From Candidatus Altimarinota bacterium (GTDB lineage: Bacteria; Patescibacteriota; Gracilibacteria; UBA4473): a stretch of 37,849 nucleotides of DNA. The stretch is from assembly GCA_021734525.1 (NCBI GenBank), contig JAIPIW010000008.1:1-37849 (forward strand), written 5' to 3'. Positions within the stretch are counted from its first letter, which is position 1, and every line of letters starts with the position of its first letter. This document shows, one piece after another, positions 12,888 through 37,709 of the stretch. A program made the position numbers and the translations under genes. The notes beneath the pieces were generated by a model, which was not told the origin of the DNA, did no database searches, and worked only from the letters and a program-made list of their open reading frames with translations.

Positions 12888-14111
12888 ATGAATAAAAAGT
12901 TATTTTTCCCGGTATCCATTGCTCTAGTTTTATTCCTATTTTCTCTGTCAGTCAGAGCTGCTTGGCGTGCTGATTGGAATTATCCAGAAGTGGATACCGT
13001 CTATAACCCTTTATCTACCGAGGGTTTTGAAACTATCAGATTCTCTGGAGATTTTTATGATGAACTTTCTTGGGAAGGATTTTTTTATGATCCAAATACT
13101 GAAGAAGTAATTCTCCCCAGTCTTATTGAAGTAAGATTCTTGCAAGAAAACATAGAACCTAAAGTTATTGTGGTTCAAGATCTTTATCCGGAAAATGAAG
13201 AAGATTGGACTATAGCTGAAAACCTTCATATCGATGAAGATGGACTTTCTTATGCTTTTGAAATTTCTATTCCCGCAGATCTTTTTTCTGTGGAAGAAAA
13301 TGGTAACTGGATCCCGCAACTCCATTTTGAGGTTGCCGAACCACTAAACAGGGGCGCCGATTTAGTTTTACCGGATAATAGAACTATTAAAATAGACACC
13401 AGAAGTCCGGAAATACGCTTATTCTATAACAATGACGATCACTCTCTCACAAACCAACCCATTAATGTCTCTATCTCCTGTAATGATGGAGAAGATGGCT
13501 CTGGCTGTTTCCCAAATTCCCTAAATACTATTTCTGTTAAGGGGAATTTTCATGAAGATTTTATGAATGAAAATAGGGGAATTGAAATTTGTGATCAGGT
13601 CAACAATTGCACCGATTTCACTCAGGAAGACAATAAAGTTCAAATTAATTTCTATGACCCTATCGAACCAATCTTCTCAGGAGTAAAACTAAAACATTTA
13701 GAAGGAAATATTGAAATATCTGGTTATGGAGAATCCTTAGCTGCTAATGATGTTTTTACTTTTAGTATTACCAACCCTAGGGATATAACCTCAATTGATC
13801 CCGAAGCCTACCCCAACCTCTTTGATCTTCATGCCTGCGGAGAAGACAATGAAGATAATGCCCTATACTTCCAACAGGAAAAATGCGCCAGCAAAGAAAA
13901 AAGATGTGCTAGAAACGCAATTATTCGTAATTCTATAATAAATCAATATCTAGGAGACCTATGTGAATTTGAACCGTTGCCTGGAGATGATCCAAGACTC
14001 TTCGACAAATGTTCGGAAAGTGGTCATTTCCCTTTGTGCTTTCCATTCAATCTCCACACTAGTGGAGACACTTTGCCATTCACTCTACCATTTATTTTAT
14101 CTGGAGATTAG
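12888..14111 (+). CDS. Secreted acidic protein with Ig-like segments, unknown function
   Basis: 407 residues. It begins with a signal peptide (KK, then a hydrophobic stretch from about 4 to 20, with cleavage likely after VRA). The mature part is acidic and rich in beta-type sequence. A segment around 175-255 (IDTRSPEIRLFYNNDD... ISCNDGEDGSGC) looks like a bacterial Ig-like domain with paired cysteines. A Cys-rich tail (about 320-390) has at least six Cys, suggesting disulfides outside the cell. No enzyme motif is seen. It converges with the metalloprotease, and both stop codons touch the palindrome at 14115-14130. Confidence 0.65.
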   Translation: MNKKLFFPVSIALVLFLFSLSVRAAWRADWNYPEVDTVYNPLSTEGFETIRFSGDFYDELSWEGFFYDPNTEEVILPSLIEVRFLQENIEPKVIVVQDLYPENEEDWTIAENLHIDEDGLSYAFEISIPADLFSVEENGNWIPQLHFEVAEPLNRGADLVLPDNRTIKIDTRSPEIRLFYNNDDHSLTNQPINVSISCNDGEDGSGCFPNSLNTISVKGNFHEDFMNENRGIEICDQVNNCTDFTQEDNKVQINFYDPIEPIFSGVKLKHLEGNIEISGYGESLAANDVFTFSITNPRDITSIDPEAYPNLFDLHACGEDNEDNALYFQQEKCASKEKRCARNAIIRNSIINQYLGDLCEFEPLPGDDPRLFDKCSESGHFPLCFPFNLHTSGDTLPFTLPFILSGD

Positions 14112-19409: not shown

Positions 19410-19862
19410 TTATTTTTCTTGTTTGAAAATCTTTTCTAGTTCCGTCTTAAAAGTTTCCATATCTTGGAACTGTCTATAAACCGATGCAAATCTAATAAAG
19501 GCTACTTCATCTATGTCCCTTAGCATCTCTATAACATCTTCGCCAATCTTTCCCGATCGCACTATTTTTTCTTTTCCCCATTTTTCTTCCAGTTCTGATA
19601 TTTTCTCTCGTATCTTTTCAATAGAAATTGGTCGTTTACCACAAGCAGTTAAAATCCCTTTTTCTAATTTTTCACGATCATATGGTTCCATTAACCCGTC
19701 TTTTTTTTCAATCATTAGGTTCGTGGTCTGCATTCTTTCAAAAGTAGTAAACCTAAATTCACATTTCTCACATTCCCGCCTTCTTCTAATTGCTACTCCT
19801 CCATCAGTGACCCGAGAATCAATGACTTTAGAGTTTTCATGGCTACAACTAGGACACTTCAT
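19410..19862 (-). CDS. nrdR: Transcriptional repressor NrdR
   Basis: 150 residues, the standard length. A zinc ribbon, CPSC (3-6) and CEKC (31-34), contains the hallmark DSRVTDGGVAIRRRREC; an ATP-cone domain follows (LMEPYDREKLEKGILTACGKRPIS). It represses ribonucleotide reductase genes in response to dATP/ATP. No nrd gene is in the window, so the target lies elsewhere. It lies between smpB and adk on the same strand. Confidence 0.97.
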   Translation of the reverse strand: MKCPSCSHENSKVIDSRVTDGGVAIRRRRECEKCEFRFTTFERMQTTNLMIEKKDGLMEPYDREKLEKGILTACGKRPISIEKIREKISELEEKWGKEKIVRSGKIGEDVIEMLRDIDEVAFIRFASVYRQFQDMETFKTELEKIFKQEK

Positions 19863-20395: not shown

Positions 20396-22063
20396 CTAAT
20401 TTATTTTCAGGCCATCTCTCATTTTTTTAGCACTTTCAGTTCTTTCTTTTTTGTCTTTTTCTTTTTGCAATATGCTTGCAAAAACTTTGGCATCTCTTTC
20501 TAAGACATCTTCTGAAACATTTTCTCCGTATAAATTCTCCTCGTGCATTTCCCAGGAAAGAAGAATCTTTTGTTCTTCCTCTTTTAATTCTTCTCCAATA
20601 AGCCTCTTTTCCAATATATCTTTGGGAAATCCAGATAAAATATCTAGGGTTTTTTCCGAAACTTTTTCTTTAAAAAATTCCCAATTAGCACTCAAAAATC
20701 CAACAAAACATTCTTCTCTGGTAAAAACCCTTCTTCTTGTTTCGTCTATTCTAGGCTTATCATGTTTTTTCTGGCGAGCAACAAACTTTCTAAATTCTTC
20801 TTCTATAACTGCTTTAGCTCTTTTGGTTTTTTTGGTTAAACGACTTAGTACTTCGTCTCTTTCTATTGGGCGATGTACAAATTGTAAAAAATAAAATACT
20901 GCATCTAGAAATTTCTTTTCTCCCTCAATAGTCTCGTCGAAATATTTGGCAGCAAATCTTTCAAAAAGAAAAAGAATTGCGTTTTGAGCATTTCCTACTG
21001 CCTTTTTTACTCCTTCTGGATCTTTTCTAGATAAATCATCTAAATCTTTTCCTTCCGGAATATCTATGATGAAAGGATTCATCTCCATTTTCAAAACCAT
21101 CTCTACGGCCTTAAGAGTGGCTTTTTTTCCGGCGATATCAGAATCAAAAGCTAAATAAATATTTTTAGTAAGTCTTTTGAGAATTCTTAAGTGTTCATCT
21201 GTTAAGGAAGTGCCACAGGTAGCTACGGTATGAGTAAAGCCAGAAGTATGAGTAGAGATGACATCAAAATTTCCTTCTACTAAAATTACTGCATCTTTTT
21301 CCCTAATTGCCTTTCTCGCTTTATCTAAACCAAAAAGAGTCGCTGATTTATGATAAACCGGATTTTCTGGAGAATTTACATATTTCGCAATGTCTTTTTT
21401 GCCAGACAAATCTCGTCCGGTAAAAGCAATAATCCGGCCATCTTTAGAGTCACTAATTGGAATCATTAGTCTGCCCCAAAAACGATCTCCCATTTTTTTA
21501 GCGCCAAATTCTCGGACAAAAGCTACTCCAGAACTAGTAATATCTTTTTCTGCAAATCCTTGTTCCAAAAGAAATTTATTTAAACCGTCTTTGCTATCTC
21601 CTCCATAACCAAGTTTCCAAACACCAATAACTTCGTCAGAAATTTGTCGTTTTTTTAGATATTCTTTGGCTTCTTTTGAGGCTTCTAGTTGTTTTGTAAA
21701 AAACTCTACTGCTTTATCGTGCAAAGAAAAAATATCTTTCTTTTCTGCTAAAGATGGGCCTTTTTTTTCTCCAAAAGAAGCTGGGATTTCTAATCCAGCC
21801 ATCTCTGCTAGCATTTCTACTGATTCCTGGAAATTCAAATTCTCGATGCGTTCTATAAAAGAAATAGCATCTCCTCCTTCTGAATTTCCAAAGTCATACC
21901 AAAATTGTTTGTCTGGACTCACACAAAAGCTTGCCGTCCTTTCGTTCCTAAAGGGAGAGCGACACATGAAATTCTTTCCCGCTTTCTTTAATTCTGCATA
22001 TTTGCGAACTAGTTCGACTAGGTCGATTCTATTTTTGAGGTCTTCGAGAAATCTATCGGACAT
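20396..22063 (-). CDS. dnaG: DNA primase DnaG with a degenerate zinc finger
   Basis: 555 residues. N-terminal CHC2-type region at about 1-100, RNA-polymerase core with TOPRIM at about 225-340 (VILVEGNFDVIS; LAFDSDIAGKKA), and a helical C-terminal region for helicase contact. The fold of the finger is recognisable (LKKAGKNFM..SPF..ERTASFCVSPDKQF..) but the C-P-F-H and C-F-G-C ligands read SPFR (36-39) and DFGN (57-60), so all four zinc ligands are missing. The catalytic Glu and Asp of TOPRIM are kept. ATG 22063 is chosen; the ORF extends further upstream into the RNase P RNA gene, and an ATG at 22084 is an alternative. It is divergent from rnpB. Confidence 0.93.
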   Translation of the reverse strand: MSDRFLEDLKNRIDLVELVRKYAELKKAGKNFMCRSPFRNERTASFCVSPDKQFWYDFGNSEGGDAISFIERIENLNFQESVEMLAEMAGLEIPASFGEKKGPSLAEKKDIFSLHDKAVEFFTKQLEASKEAKEYLKKRQISDEVIGVWKLGYGGDSKDGLNKFLLEQGFAEKDITSSGVAFVREFGAKKMGDRFWGRLMIPISDSKDGRIIAFTGRDLSGKKDIAKYVNSPENPVYHKSATLFGLDKARKAIREKDAVILVEGNFDVISTHTSGFTHTVATCGTSLTDEHLRILKRLTKNIYLAFDSDIAGKKATLKAVEMVLKMEMNPFIIDIPEGKDLDDLSRKDPEGVKKAVGNAQNAILFLFERFAAKYFDETIEGEKKFLDAVFYFLQFVHRPIERDEVLSRLTKKTKRAKAVIEEEFRKFVARQKKHDKPRIDETRRRVFTREECFVGFLSANWEFFKEKVSEKTLDILSGFPKDILEKRLIGEELKEEEQKILLSWEMHEENLYGENVSEDVLERDAKVFASILQKEKDKKERTESAKKMRDGLKIN

Positions 22064-22106: not shown

Positions 22107-22468
22107 CTCTTTTTAAGGTTGTCGCTTCGCAATTGCGAAGAGGAAAGTCCGAGCCGCACGAAAAATATAGAAACATCTCACCGATGATCCTTTGTTTGGT
22201 AACAAACAAGGAGGGAAAGTGGCACAGAAATTATACGTCCTCGTCTGACGAGGCTCCGGTGAAACATTCGAAAGGTGATTCTTTCGGTCTACGTTGTGGT
22301 AACACTACGTAGTGCCAAACCCTTCTAGCGGAGAAGCAGGGGGCCAAATCTTGTCTAGTGGTGTTTTTCCCACGCTGAAACAAAATTTGTCCTGCCGATG
22401 ACAATTAGCAGCAATGCTGGTGATCAGATAAATGACAGCCATAACAAAACTCGGCTTACTAAAAAGGG
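22107..22468 (+). ncRNA. rnpB: RNase P RNA (A-type)
   Basis: The conserved core is present: GAGGAAAGTCCGAGC, ACAGAAATTATACG, GCCAAACCC and AGATAAATGACAGCC..AACAAAACTCGGCTTA. P1 pairs CTCTTTTTA (22107-22115) with TAAAAAGGG (22460-22468); P2 pairs GGTTGTC with GACAGCC; P3 is the CTTCGCAATTGCGAAG hairpin. It is the catalytic RNA of RNase P, which removes tRNA 5' leaders. Boundaries are set from P1. Confidence 0.96.
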
Positions 22469-29050: not shown

Positions 29051-30847
29051 ATGAAATATACAACTGACGATCTACGAACCAAATGGCTTGATTTTTGGAA
29101 ATCCAAAAATCATGTAGTTATTCCTAGCGCTGGAGTCATCCCAGACAATGACCCCACTGCTCTTTTCCATAATGCTGGAATGCATCCGCTAGTTCCTTTC
29201 CTAATGGGCGAAAAACATCCCGCTGGGATTAGACTCGCCAATGCCCAAAAATGCATCCGTACCATAGATATTGATGAAGTAGGAGATGATATCCATCTCA
29301 CCTTCTTTGAAATGCTAGGGAATTGGTCATTGGGGGACTACTTCAAAAAAGAACAAATTGCCTGGTCTTTTGAATTCCTCACTAAGATTTTAAAACTTCC
29401 GGTAGAAAAAATCGCTGTTTCTGTTTTTGCGGGTGACGAAAATGCTCCTCGAGATGAAGAATCTGCCGAATTTTGGCAAAAGCAGGGAATAAGAAGAGAA
29501 CGTATTGCTTACTTAGATAAAAAGCATAATTGGTGGGCTAAGGGAGATACAGGCCCCTGTGGTCCAGACACAGAAATGTTCTTTTGGGTTGGAGATGGTA
29601 ATGGTCCAAAAAATTTCCAAGACACTTGTGAAGACCCTCAATGGGTAGAAATTTGGAATGACGTTTTCATGCAGTTCAATAGAAGTCCAGATGGGAAACT
29701 AACCCCCCTCCCGCAAGAGAATATAGATACCGGAATGGGGTTGGAAAGAACTGTCGCCGCTCTTAATGGACTATCTTCTGTCTATGAAACAGACGCTTTT
29801 GCAAGTATATTGCAAAAACTATCAGAACTCTCTGATAACACAGAAAATACTACTTCCAAACGCATTGTAGCAGATCATTTACGCACAGCGGTAGTAATTT
29901 TGGCTGATAAAATTGCTCCTTCTAACTTAGATCAGGGGTATATTTTACGCAGACTTTTGCGGCGAGCCATTCGTCATGGACGTAAAATAGATATCTCTGG
30001 AAGTTTTTGCAAGATTATTGCAAAAGTTGTGATAGAGAAATTAGGCAAAGCTTATCCGGAAATTAAACAGAATGAAGCTTTTATTTTGGAAGAATTAGAA
30101 CGAGAAGAAGTGCAATTTTCTAAGACTTTAGAAAAAGGAGAGAGGGAGTTCTACAGAATGTACACAAAAAAAAGAAATAAAATATTGCATTCAGACCCTT
30201 CCTTTGCTGGGAATCCATTACACATAGATGGGAAGTGGGCTTTTGATTTATATCAAACATACGGCTTCCCAATCGAAATGATCGAAGAATTGGGAAAAGA
30301 GCACGAAATTAATATCGATATCAAAGAGTTTGAAAAAGAGTTTAAAAAACACCAAGCCCTATCAAGGGCAGGTTCTGAAAAGAAATTCAAAGGGGGTTTA
30401 GGGGACCATTCAGAAAGAACTACAGCTTTGCACACTGCTACCCACCTTCTTCATGCGGGACTAAGAAAAGTTCTGGGAGAACATGTGGAGCAACGTGGTT
30501 CTAATATTACCCCAGAAAGATTGCGTTTTGATTTCTCTCATCCAGAAAAAATGACTTCGGAACAAATTAAAGAGGTAGAGGATTTTGTTAATCAGGCTAT
30601 CCAGGCCGATGTTATCATTGAATTTGAAGAAATGTCTGTAGATGATGCCAAATCTAAAAACGCTATTGGTCTTTTTGAACACAAATACGGCGATAAAGTG
30701 AAAGTTTACTCTATGGGAGAATTCTCCAAGGAGATTTGCGGCGGACCACACGTGGGAAACACTGGAAAGTTGGGGAAATTCAAAATCAAAAAAGAAGAAG
30801 CTTCTTCCCGAGGGGTAAGGAGAATAAAGGCGGTTATAGAGAACTAA
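29051..30847 (+). CDS. alaS: Alanyl-tRNA synthetase, short form without C-Ala
   Basis: 598 residues against about 875 in E. coli. The class II catalytic domain starts TTDDLRTKWLDFWKSKNH and has the AlaRS ARLANAQKCIRTIDIDEVG-type motif and the GMGLERTVA motif; a tRNA-recognition helical domain follows, then an editing domain with HTATHLLH and CGGPHVGNTG (the Zn-binding His/His/Cys/His set). The protein ends just after the editing domain, so the C-Ala dimerisation and tRNA-elbow domain is missing. This is a true stop, not a frameshift: the pyrF stop overlaps it by 4 nt in convergent orientation. Confidence 0.96.
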   Translation: MKYTTDDLRTKWLDFWKSKNHVVIPSAGVIPDNDPTALFHNAGMHPLVPFLMGEKHPAGIRLANAQKCIRTIDIDEVGDDIHLTFFEMLGNWSLGDYFKKEQIAWSFEFLTKILKLPVEKIAVSVFAGDENAPRDEESAEFWQKQGIRRERIAYLDKKHNWWAKGDTGPCGPDTEMFFWVGDGNGPKNFQDTCEDPQWVEIWNDVFMQFNRSPDGKLTPLPQENIDTGMGLERTVAALNGLSSVYETDAFASILQKLSELSDNTENTTSKRIVADHLRTAVVILADKIAPSNLDQGYILRRLLRRAIRHGRKIDISGSFCKIIAKVVIEKLGKAYPEIKQNEAFILEELEREEVQFSKTLEKGEREFYRMYTKKRNKILHSDPSFAGNPLHIDGKWAFDLYQTYGFPIEMIEELGKEHEINIDIKEFEKEFKKHQALSRAGSEKKFKGGLGDHSERTTALHTATHLLHAGLRKVLGEHVEQRGSNITPERLRFDFSHPEKMTSEQIKEVEDFVNQAIQADVIIEFEEMSVDDAKSKNAIGLFEHKYGDKVKVYSMGEFSKEICGGPHVGNTGKLGKFKIKKEEASSRGVRRIKAVIEN

Positions 30848-36687: not shown

Positions 36688-36695
36688 GAATTTTG

Positions 36696-37709
36696 ATGAA
36701 ACGAAAAAATTCCGGCGTGTCTCTAATTGTAGTTCTTGGAATTTCTTTTGCGGTTCTTGGGGTTGCTATGGCAACTCTCTCTTCCGTTTCTAAGGGATTG
36801 GAACAGGGAACGGCCATAGAAAGGTCTAATCAGATTTTTTTTGCTACTGAGTCCGGCATTGAGGCGGCATTATTTCATCATAATGCGCGCGGACAAGGTG
36901 TCCATTTCCCCGATGATGTCGAAATTGCTGGCGAATTCCCACAACGCATTTCTTTACCAGCTTCATCTGCTACTGTTGCCTGGGAAATTGCCGGTCGTGA
37001 CGAAACTATTGACACTCTCCTGAAAGAAAATCAACCCATTCAAATTCCTTTTTTCTGGGACAATTCTACTAACCCAACGGAAGCCCCTCCCCTTGATATG
37101 AATGGTAATTTTGACCCTACCCATGACAATGCCGGCGAACTAAACCTTAATGCTGGCTTCTCCTTAACTTTCAACACCTCCAATGCAAAAATCCCCCGTC
37201 CTTTTGACTTTGGGAATGCCGATAATGAAGTTCTGCTGGACTGGTCCGTCTCCCGCAAATTAGACGACGGAGGCTTTGAAACCTTCTTGCCAGACAAGGG
37301 GGCCGGAGGGGTTTGTGACCCTGCCTCCGCCTTTATTTGTGAGGACGAATTTTTAGTTGGGGATGAATTCGCCTTTGACGTTCCCGCAAATATAAACGGA
37401 AAAATTTCTCCCGGTTTAACCGATATCACCCTAGCCGGCTTCTTAGATTATGACATTGCTAGCCTTTTTAAGCTGTCTTTCCGCCCACTTCTTTCTTTTT
37501 CTCACGAGGGAGATCCTGAAACCGAAGACGATGATGCCAACATCCCCGGAATTCCTTTTGTTTTTGATCCGGCTGAAAATGCTGAAGTCCCATTGCCTTA
37601 TTACACTATTACTTCTGCAGTCTCCATTGGTGATTTTTCTCGTACCATTAGCGTGGAGATAGCAGAAAAAACTGGCATTGGTGGCTTTGATTACGTAATC
37701 TTTGACTAG
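36696..37709 (+). CDS. PilX-like type IV pilus / pseudopilin-like protein
   Basis: 337 residues. A short basic leader (MKRKNSG) is followed by a hydrophobic helix VSLIVVLGISFAVLGVAMATLS and then SKGLEQGTAIERSNQIFFATESGIEAAL, the pattern of PilX-type minor pilins. The likely prepilin cleavage is after Gly7, although the usual Glu at +5 is missing. The large C-terminal part is acidic, beta-rich and unrecognised, with one Cys pair (VCDPASAFICEDE). It would be anchored in the membrane or fibre with its domain outside. Confidence 0.75.
   Translation: MKRKNSGVSLIVVLGISFAVLGVAMATLSSVSKGLEQGTAIERSNQIFFATESGIEAALFHHNARGQGVHFPDDVEIAGEFPQRISLPASSATVAWEIAGRDETIDTLLKENQPIQIPFFWDNSTNPTEAPPLDMNGNFDPTHDNAGELNLNAGFSLTFNTSNAKIPRPFDFGNADNEVLLDWSVSRKLDDGGFETFLPDKGAGGVCDPASAFICEDEFLVGDEFAFDVPANINGKISPGLTDITLAGFLDYDIASLFKLSFRPLLSFSHEGDPETEDDDANIPGIPFVFDPAENAEVPLPYYTITSAVSIGDFSRTISVEIAEKTGIGGFDYVIFD

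Follow-up and report, generated by a model that had tools for sequence, protein, structure and literature searches.

The window (the whole stretch of 37,849 nucleotides analysed here) encodes a DnaG primase in which all four zinc ligands of the N-terminal CHC2 domain are replaced by other residues, and the observations as a whole are probably best explained by a working replicative DnaG whose zinc-ribbon domain no longer binds zinc. The initial annotation had treated this as one odd protein; the zincless state is instead the rule for the whole order to which the source organism belongs, and it recurs elsewhere in the phylum Patescibacteria.

The dnaG gene (20396..22063, minus strand) encodes a DNA primase of 555 amino acids which matches the DnaG equivalog model TIGR01391 with 378.7 bits (cut-off 283.6) over profile positions 2-412 of 414. 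Its N-terminal part matches the CHC2 zinc ribbon family PF01807 with 96.6 bits against a Pfam cut-off of 24.9, and the domain so delineated (residues 1-94; 21782..22063, minus) lacks the metal site in alignments with the Aquifex DnaG chain 2au3 and among 20 genomes of the order. The RNA polymerase (TOPRIM) domain at residues 104-405 (20849..21754, minus) was delineated by PF08275, PF13155, conserved columns and Foldseek, and its catalytic motifs, EGNFD (Glu263, Asp267) and FDSD (Asp307, Asp309), contribute four acidic residues that are invariant in a 19-row alignment. The best Foldseek matches of the predicted catalytic part are solved DnaG polymerase domains (TMt up to 0.85). Residues 406-555 (20399..20848, minus) form an all-helical C-terminal region, with helices predicted by AlphaFold2 mostly at pLDDT ~80-90; a Pfam search with this region gave no match, and from its position, which is that of the helicase-binding domain, we infer that it binds the helicase. 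An upstream extension of the frame is possible, to a GTG at 22159; in relatives, DnaG begins at the position equivalent to the Met at 22063, from which residues are numbered here. Judged by descent and architecture, the window protein is a DnaG, and by descent it also belongs to the CHC2 domain family, though it lacks the metal-binding feature of that family.

Inspection of the four ligand positions codon by codon on the minus strand showed that ligand 1 (Cys) is replaced by Ser36 (TCT, 21956..21958), ligand 2 (His) by Arg39 (AGG, 21947..21949), ligand 3 (Cys) by Asp57 (GAC, 21893..21895) and ligand 4 (Cys) by Asn60 (AAT, 21884..21886). The minus-strand DNA reads TCT CCC TTT AGG from 21958 to 21947 (Ser36 to Arg39) and GAC TTT GGA AAT from 21895 to 21884 (Asp57 to Asn60), and the four residues align without gaps with the C, H, C and C of 2au3. 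These readings bear out the initial annotation, according to which all four ligands are replaced (S, R, D, N), the CHC2 fold motif is otherwise retained, as are the TOPRIM catalytic residues, and Cys34 and Cys47 do not take the place of the lost ligands. The last point is decided by comparison within the order, where both cysteines vary (position 34 can be Gly or Thr and position 47 can be Ser or Phe) and so cannot be substitute ligands. The codons at positions 36, 39, 57 and 60 lie 1, 3, 2 and 2 bases, respectively, from the closest codon for Cys or His; thus, a single error cannot explain the ligand loss.

Alignment of DnaG across the lineage, as proposed in the initial annotation, revealed Ser36, Arg39 and Asp57 in all 20 genomes of the order, which span 15 genera; the named relatives are Candidatus Gracilibacteria and Patescibacteria bins, and the frames contain no stops. 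Position 60 varies (N/S/T/A/V/L), so that the pattern common to the order is S-R-D-x. Tyr56 (21896..21898, minus), adjoining the position of ligand 3, is present in 20 of 20 genomes, as are the acidic residues Asp57, Glu41, Glu62 and Asp65 near the site. Among these genomes Ser36 is written in six different codons, Arg39 in all six Arg codons and Asp57 in both Asp codons, a diversity which argues that these residues are held by selection and are not merely recently inherited. Close relatives with intact ligands, or a second normal dnaG, had been named as observations that would speak against a genuine loss. Relatives with intact ligands occur outside the order only. A second dnaG was not found in the source assembly (934,600 bases, 43 contigs, 89.85% complete), which yields a single PF01807 match, and the other members of the family have dnaG in one place each, except for one gene split across two contigs.

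Outside the order, the 30 DnaGs with the best scores among the remaining families of the class all carry C-H-C-C. To survey the phylum, a sample of 380 genomes was searched with a profile of the zinc domain of the order and scanned with a DNA pattern for C-P-F-H...C-F-x-C; a DnaG model search was run in the 72 pattern-negative genomes outside the order. The DNA pattern for C-H-C-C is blind to spacing variants and to the CPFPGH of family f14 (families, genomes and loci are given by our own codes), and therefore all pattern-negative phylum genomes with a readable domain were inspected. Among the DnaGs read in this way, 12 have an unusual but complete C-H-C-C site (CFGxC, CYGC, CPIH, CPLH) and 38 lack the site; the remaining pattern-negative genomes have no readable domain. 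Altogether, the zinc site is absent from at least 41 of the 358 readable DnaGs in the Patescibacteria sample (~11%; 358 = 305 + 12 + 41, and the 41 are the 38 plus three sampled members of the order of the window), a lower bound because a pattern match may belong to another CHC2 protein of the same genome. Approximately 89% of the readable sampled Patescibacteria thus retain the DnaG zinc ligands. The class sample yielded six further zincless DnaGs, in families f10, f17, f22, f24 and f28, a count that leaves out some pattern-negative genomes (e.g., G030, G121, G143, G170 and most of f14). Zincless DnaGs bear 19 family codes in all.

Several DnaGs depart from the canonical spacing with their ligands intact: those of L110-L117 and L120, from several families, have CFGxC for CFGC, with one additional residue in the second knuckle, and those of family f14 (L164-L167) have a widened first knuckle, CPFPGH for CPFH. 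Family f90, which appeared as C-H-C-A, was rejected as an alignment artefact, its sequences being CFGxC with one extra residue and all four ligands. One genome, G397 (family f53), encodes two different DnaGs (L125 and L179), neither with a zinc site. In some Gracilibacteria, TGA is read as glycine; in-frame TGA codons occur in the DnaG frames of the class families f10, f14, f22 and f24, and none occurs in dnaG of the order of the window. The profile search found no DnaG in some phylum genomes rated 100% complete (e.g., G217, G262, G279 and G466), which points to assembly gaps or else to a primase that is absent or very divergent. From a search of phage and plasmid records, the three phage matches read are ordinary C-H-C-C proteins.

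The ligands are lost as a set: the rows read show either a complete C-H-C-C or the loss of at least three ligands. With residue frequencies weighted by family over 60 family-by-state groups, position 36 is Cys in 100% of the DnaGs with zinc ligands and Ser in 100% of those without. Position 39 is invariably His when the ligands are present (100%) and is distributed among Thr (38%), Lys (24%), Arg (13%), Ser (8%), Gly (7%) and Asn (5%) in zincless proteins. Position 57 shifts from 100% Cys to Asp (66%) or Cys (34%), and position 60 from 100% Cys to Ser (61%) or Thr (35%); in addition, Gly at position 59 is replaced by Ser in most zincless DnaGs. Residues P37, F38, E41, S45, F46, F58, G63 and G64 are common to zinc-bearing and zincless DnaGs. 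Three types can be told apart: S-R-D-x, found in the order of the window, f158 and one member of f36; S-x-D-S, in f37 and its allies and part of f10; and S-x-C-T, in f53, f152, f17, f22, f24, f28 and another member of f36. The motif SPFT...WHDFSS, which we take to be that of Saccharibacteria DnaG, fits the f37 group, although we do not claim identity between the two.

To keep the zinc region from biasing the topology, the phylogenetic tree was built from the catalytic domain only (residues 104-405). The tree requires 10 changes of state whether it is built from 141 rows or, under a careful search, from 76; in the 76-row tree the 5-95% bootstrap range is 10-10, and strongly supported branches force at least 5 changes. 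A single zincless clade is rejected, the best constrained tree being worse by 517.8 log units (AU p 3e-91). The order of the window forms one clade (support 100/100). The f158 DnaG (S-P-F-R...D-F-G-S) groups with f130 inside the f37 group (100/95), and accordingly its likeness to the order of the window is convergent. In f36 and in f10, zincless and zinc-bearing DnaGs share one well supported clade each. The tree cannot separate loss from regain, and we read the changes as losses, regain of four exact ligands being unlikely. On this sequence comparison, the zincless DnaG arose in at least five, and probably about ten, lineages of the phylum.

Recurrence of the loss inside one phylum fits the idea that scarce zinc is the cause, such that bacteria with small genomes shed zinc from essential proteins. 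Zinc-free ribosomal proteins occur in many bacteria and in some are tied to zinc limitation (PMC5912738, PMC3087516), and this cause would be compatible with a zinc-free working primase. Nevertheless, it appears rather unlikely to us, given that about nine-tenths of the readable sampled genomes keep the DnaG ligands and that the window itself, in which other zinc proteins were looked for, encodes NrdR with an intact zinc ribbon (19410-19862, minus; PF22811, 71.8 bits; Cys3, Cys6, Cys31 and Cys34). The NrdR gene is the second gene downstream of the zincless dnaG, after smpB, and its ribbon indicates that zinc ribbons as such have not been abandoned in this genome. Among the other genes of the window, alanyl-tRNA synthetase (29051-30847, plus) has only 598 residues, and its match to the Pfam catalytic family, which ends at profile position 436 of 552, precedes the SAD domain; two plus-strand frames, 12888-14111 (407 residues) and 36693-37709 (338 residues), have no Pfam match at the threshold used.

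How the ribbon might hold together in the absence of zinc is suggested by the replacements themselves. In the mechanism we propose, the ribbon would fold metal-free, a polar network in the former metal pocket keeping its two knuckles in place. In the order of the window, this network would comprise Ser36, Arg39 and Asp57, with a salt bridge between Arg39 and Asp57 and Ser36 nearby; in other zincless lineages, it would comprise Ser36 with either Asp57-Ser60 or Cys57-Thr60. The salt bridge is plausible: Arg39 and Asp57 carry opposite charges at ligand positions and are conserved as a pair in all 20 genomes of the order, their proximity is argued by homology from the fact that the replaced ligands bound the same ion, and the freedom of position 60 to vary fits its lying outside the contact. 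AlphaFold2 was run on the full protein with 8 sequences and on residues 1-100 with 9 sequences; the zinc region came out at pLDDT ~27-48 in these runs, and because of these low values we claim no Arg39-Asp57 distance, whereas the catalytic and C-terminal parts were modelled fairly well. In other zincless DnaGs, position 39 is occupied by Thr, Ser or Gly, and position 57 is Cys in some. Given that Arg39 is absent from most other zincless lineages, the salt bridge is not a general device, and we infer that any such device must have Ser36 at its centre, together with Asp57-Ser60 or Cys57-Thr60.

The same pocket could in principle bind a metal through other residues, e.g., a hard metal through Asp57 together with Glu41, Glu62 or Asp65. 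The invariance of all four acids in the order is in line with such a site, as is the rank of Asp57 as the commonest replacement across the phylum (two-thirds of the family groups). However, Glu41 and Asp65 are equally conserved in zinc-bearing DnaGs and so probably serve other purposes, most zincless lineages have Gln or Lys at position 62, one-third of the zincless groups have Cys rather than Asp at 57, and Cys34 and Cys47 vary within the order, all of which makes another metal site improbable.

A domain deprived of its metal might also be a relic, vanishing or kept as a spacer, with the catalytic domain priming alone at low template specificity. The core need not be inert in such a case: the polymerase domain of T7 primase without its zinc domain still makes dinucleotides, in a template-free manner (PMC6163395). 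Yet a functionless domain would drift faster, and this one does not. The zinc domain has 33 invariant columns among the 20 genomes of the order, it retains Ser36, Arg39 and Asp57 across all their synonymous codons, and it outconserves the catalytic domain to the same extent as in zinc-bearing families, the ratio of pairwise identities in the zinc and catalytic domains being 1.23 in the family of the window and 1.28 in zincless f37, compared with 1.13-1.57 in zinc-bearing families. This normal ratio is the strongest sequence evidence that the ribbon is functional without metal, and the relic explanation is accordingly very improbable. The genomic context points the same way as regards the role of the protein: DnaG is the sole one found, no primase of the Prim-Pol type was detected among the 20 family genomes, and DnaB helicase, the partner of primase, is present in 18 of the 20. 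The window DnaG is therefore most likely the replicative primase, and primer synthesis in these bacteria is most likely independent of DnaG zinc.

Sequencing or assembly error, a pseudogene or a second normal dnaG elsewhere has a negligible chance of being the explanation: although an assembly in 43 contigs at 89.85% completeness could in principle miss a gene, the error reading is refuted by the same pattern in all relatives of the order (20/20 genomes, 13 of them at least 90% complete), in open frames without stops and with a single DnaG per genome.

Under the proposed mechanism, the zincless domain would still contact the template and pass it to the TOPRIM polymerase domain, so that priming would continue without zinc in the primase. 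Because model primases require the zinc domain for template recognition (T7 work, as cited in PMC6163395), the zincless version may behave somehow differently from them. In the Clostridium difficile primase, Lys70, which adjoins ligand 3 and is His in most other primases, helps to set the initiation trinucleotide (PMC5204125). In our own reading of the alignment, Lys70 corresponds to position 56 of the window DnaG, which in the rest of the phylum is usually His or Tyr. The presence of Tyr56 at a position that affects the choice of trinucleotide makes a changed preference possible in the order of the window. The fuller scenario, that Patescibacteria evolved zinc-independent primases several times via a few convergent routes, S-x-D-S/T, S-R-D-x and S-x-C-T, with the ribbon still recognising the template and both the initiation trinucleotide and the primer length changed, is put forward tentatively and is less likely than not.

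The window protein resembles bacterial DnaGs (TIGR01391; structures 2AU3, 1D0Q, 1DD9 and 5GUJ) in domain order, zinc-ribbon motif, TOPRIM residues, single gene and the presence of DnaB, and differs from them in having S, R, D and N for the four ligands and Tyr56 in place of His or Lys. The closest precedent is zinc-free ribosomal protein S4, whose C-(II) form has the motif EXXE...RXXXXS, with a salt bridge proposed in place of zinc (PMC3087516); the S4 case falls within the broader 'two C or not two C' pattern that this article cites from Makarova and others. As in the zinc-free (C-) ribosomal proteins, and above all S4 C-(II), an essential conserved protein has lost all its structural zinc ligands and acquired charged replacements. 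In contrast to S4, the forms of which have partly spread by horizontal transfer and coexist in some genomes, DnaG in the order of the window is single copy, and its ligands look to have been replaced in place on separate occasions. The Twinkle protein of metazoans and T7 primase deprived of its zinc domain are likewise DnaG-type TOPRIM proteins without a working zinc site, and these have lost either priming or template recognition (PMC3610141, PMC10557236, PMC6163395), whereas the window DnaG is the only primase found and its domain is under full constraint. For TtDnaG2 and Aquifex DnaG, unusual initiation specificity or primer length has been ascribed to where the zinc domain is positioned (PMC5634424); neither is described as lacking ligands, and Aquifex DnaG is C-H-C-C in our alignment. 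A literature search, mostly outside subscription journals, found no report of a zincless DnaG, in Patescibacteria or elsewhere.

If our explanation holds, an essential replication enzyme can lose its structural zinc in place, a behavior previously known mainly for ribosomal proteins. Annotation that relies on the CHC2 motif, or drug targeting of the zinc domain, would not fit about one in nine of the sampled Patescibacteria. Natural metal-less DnaGs with the domain under full selection would make the role of the metal separable from that of the fold, and several independent zincless cases are available for comparison. Should the tentative scenario of altered initiation also be true, the rules of primer initiation in the zincless lineages would differ from those in E. 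coli or Bacillus.
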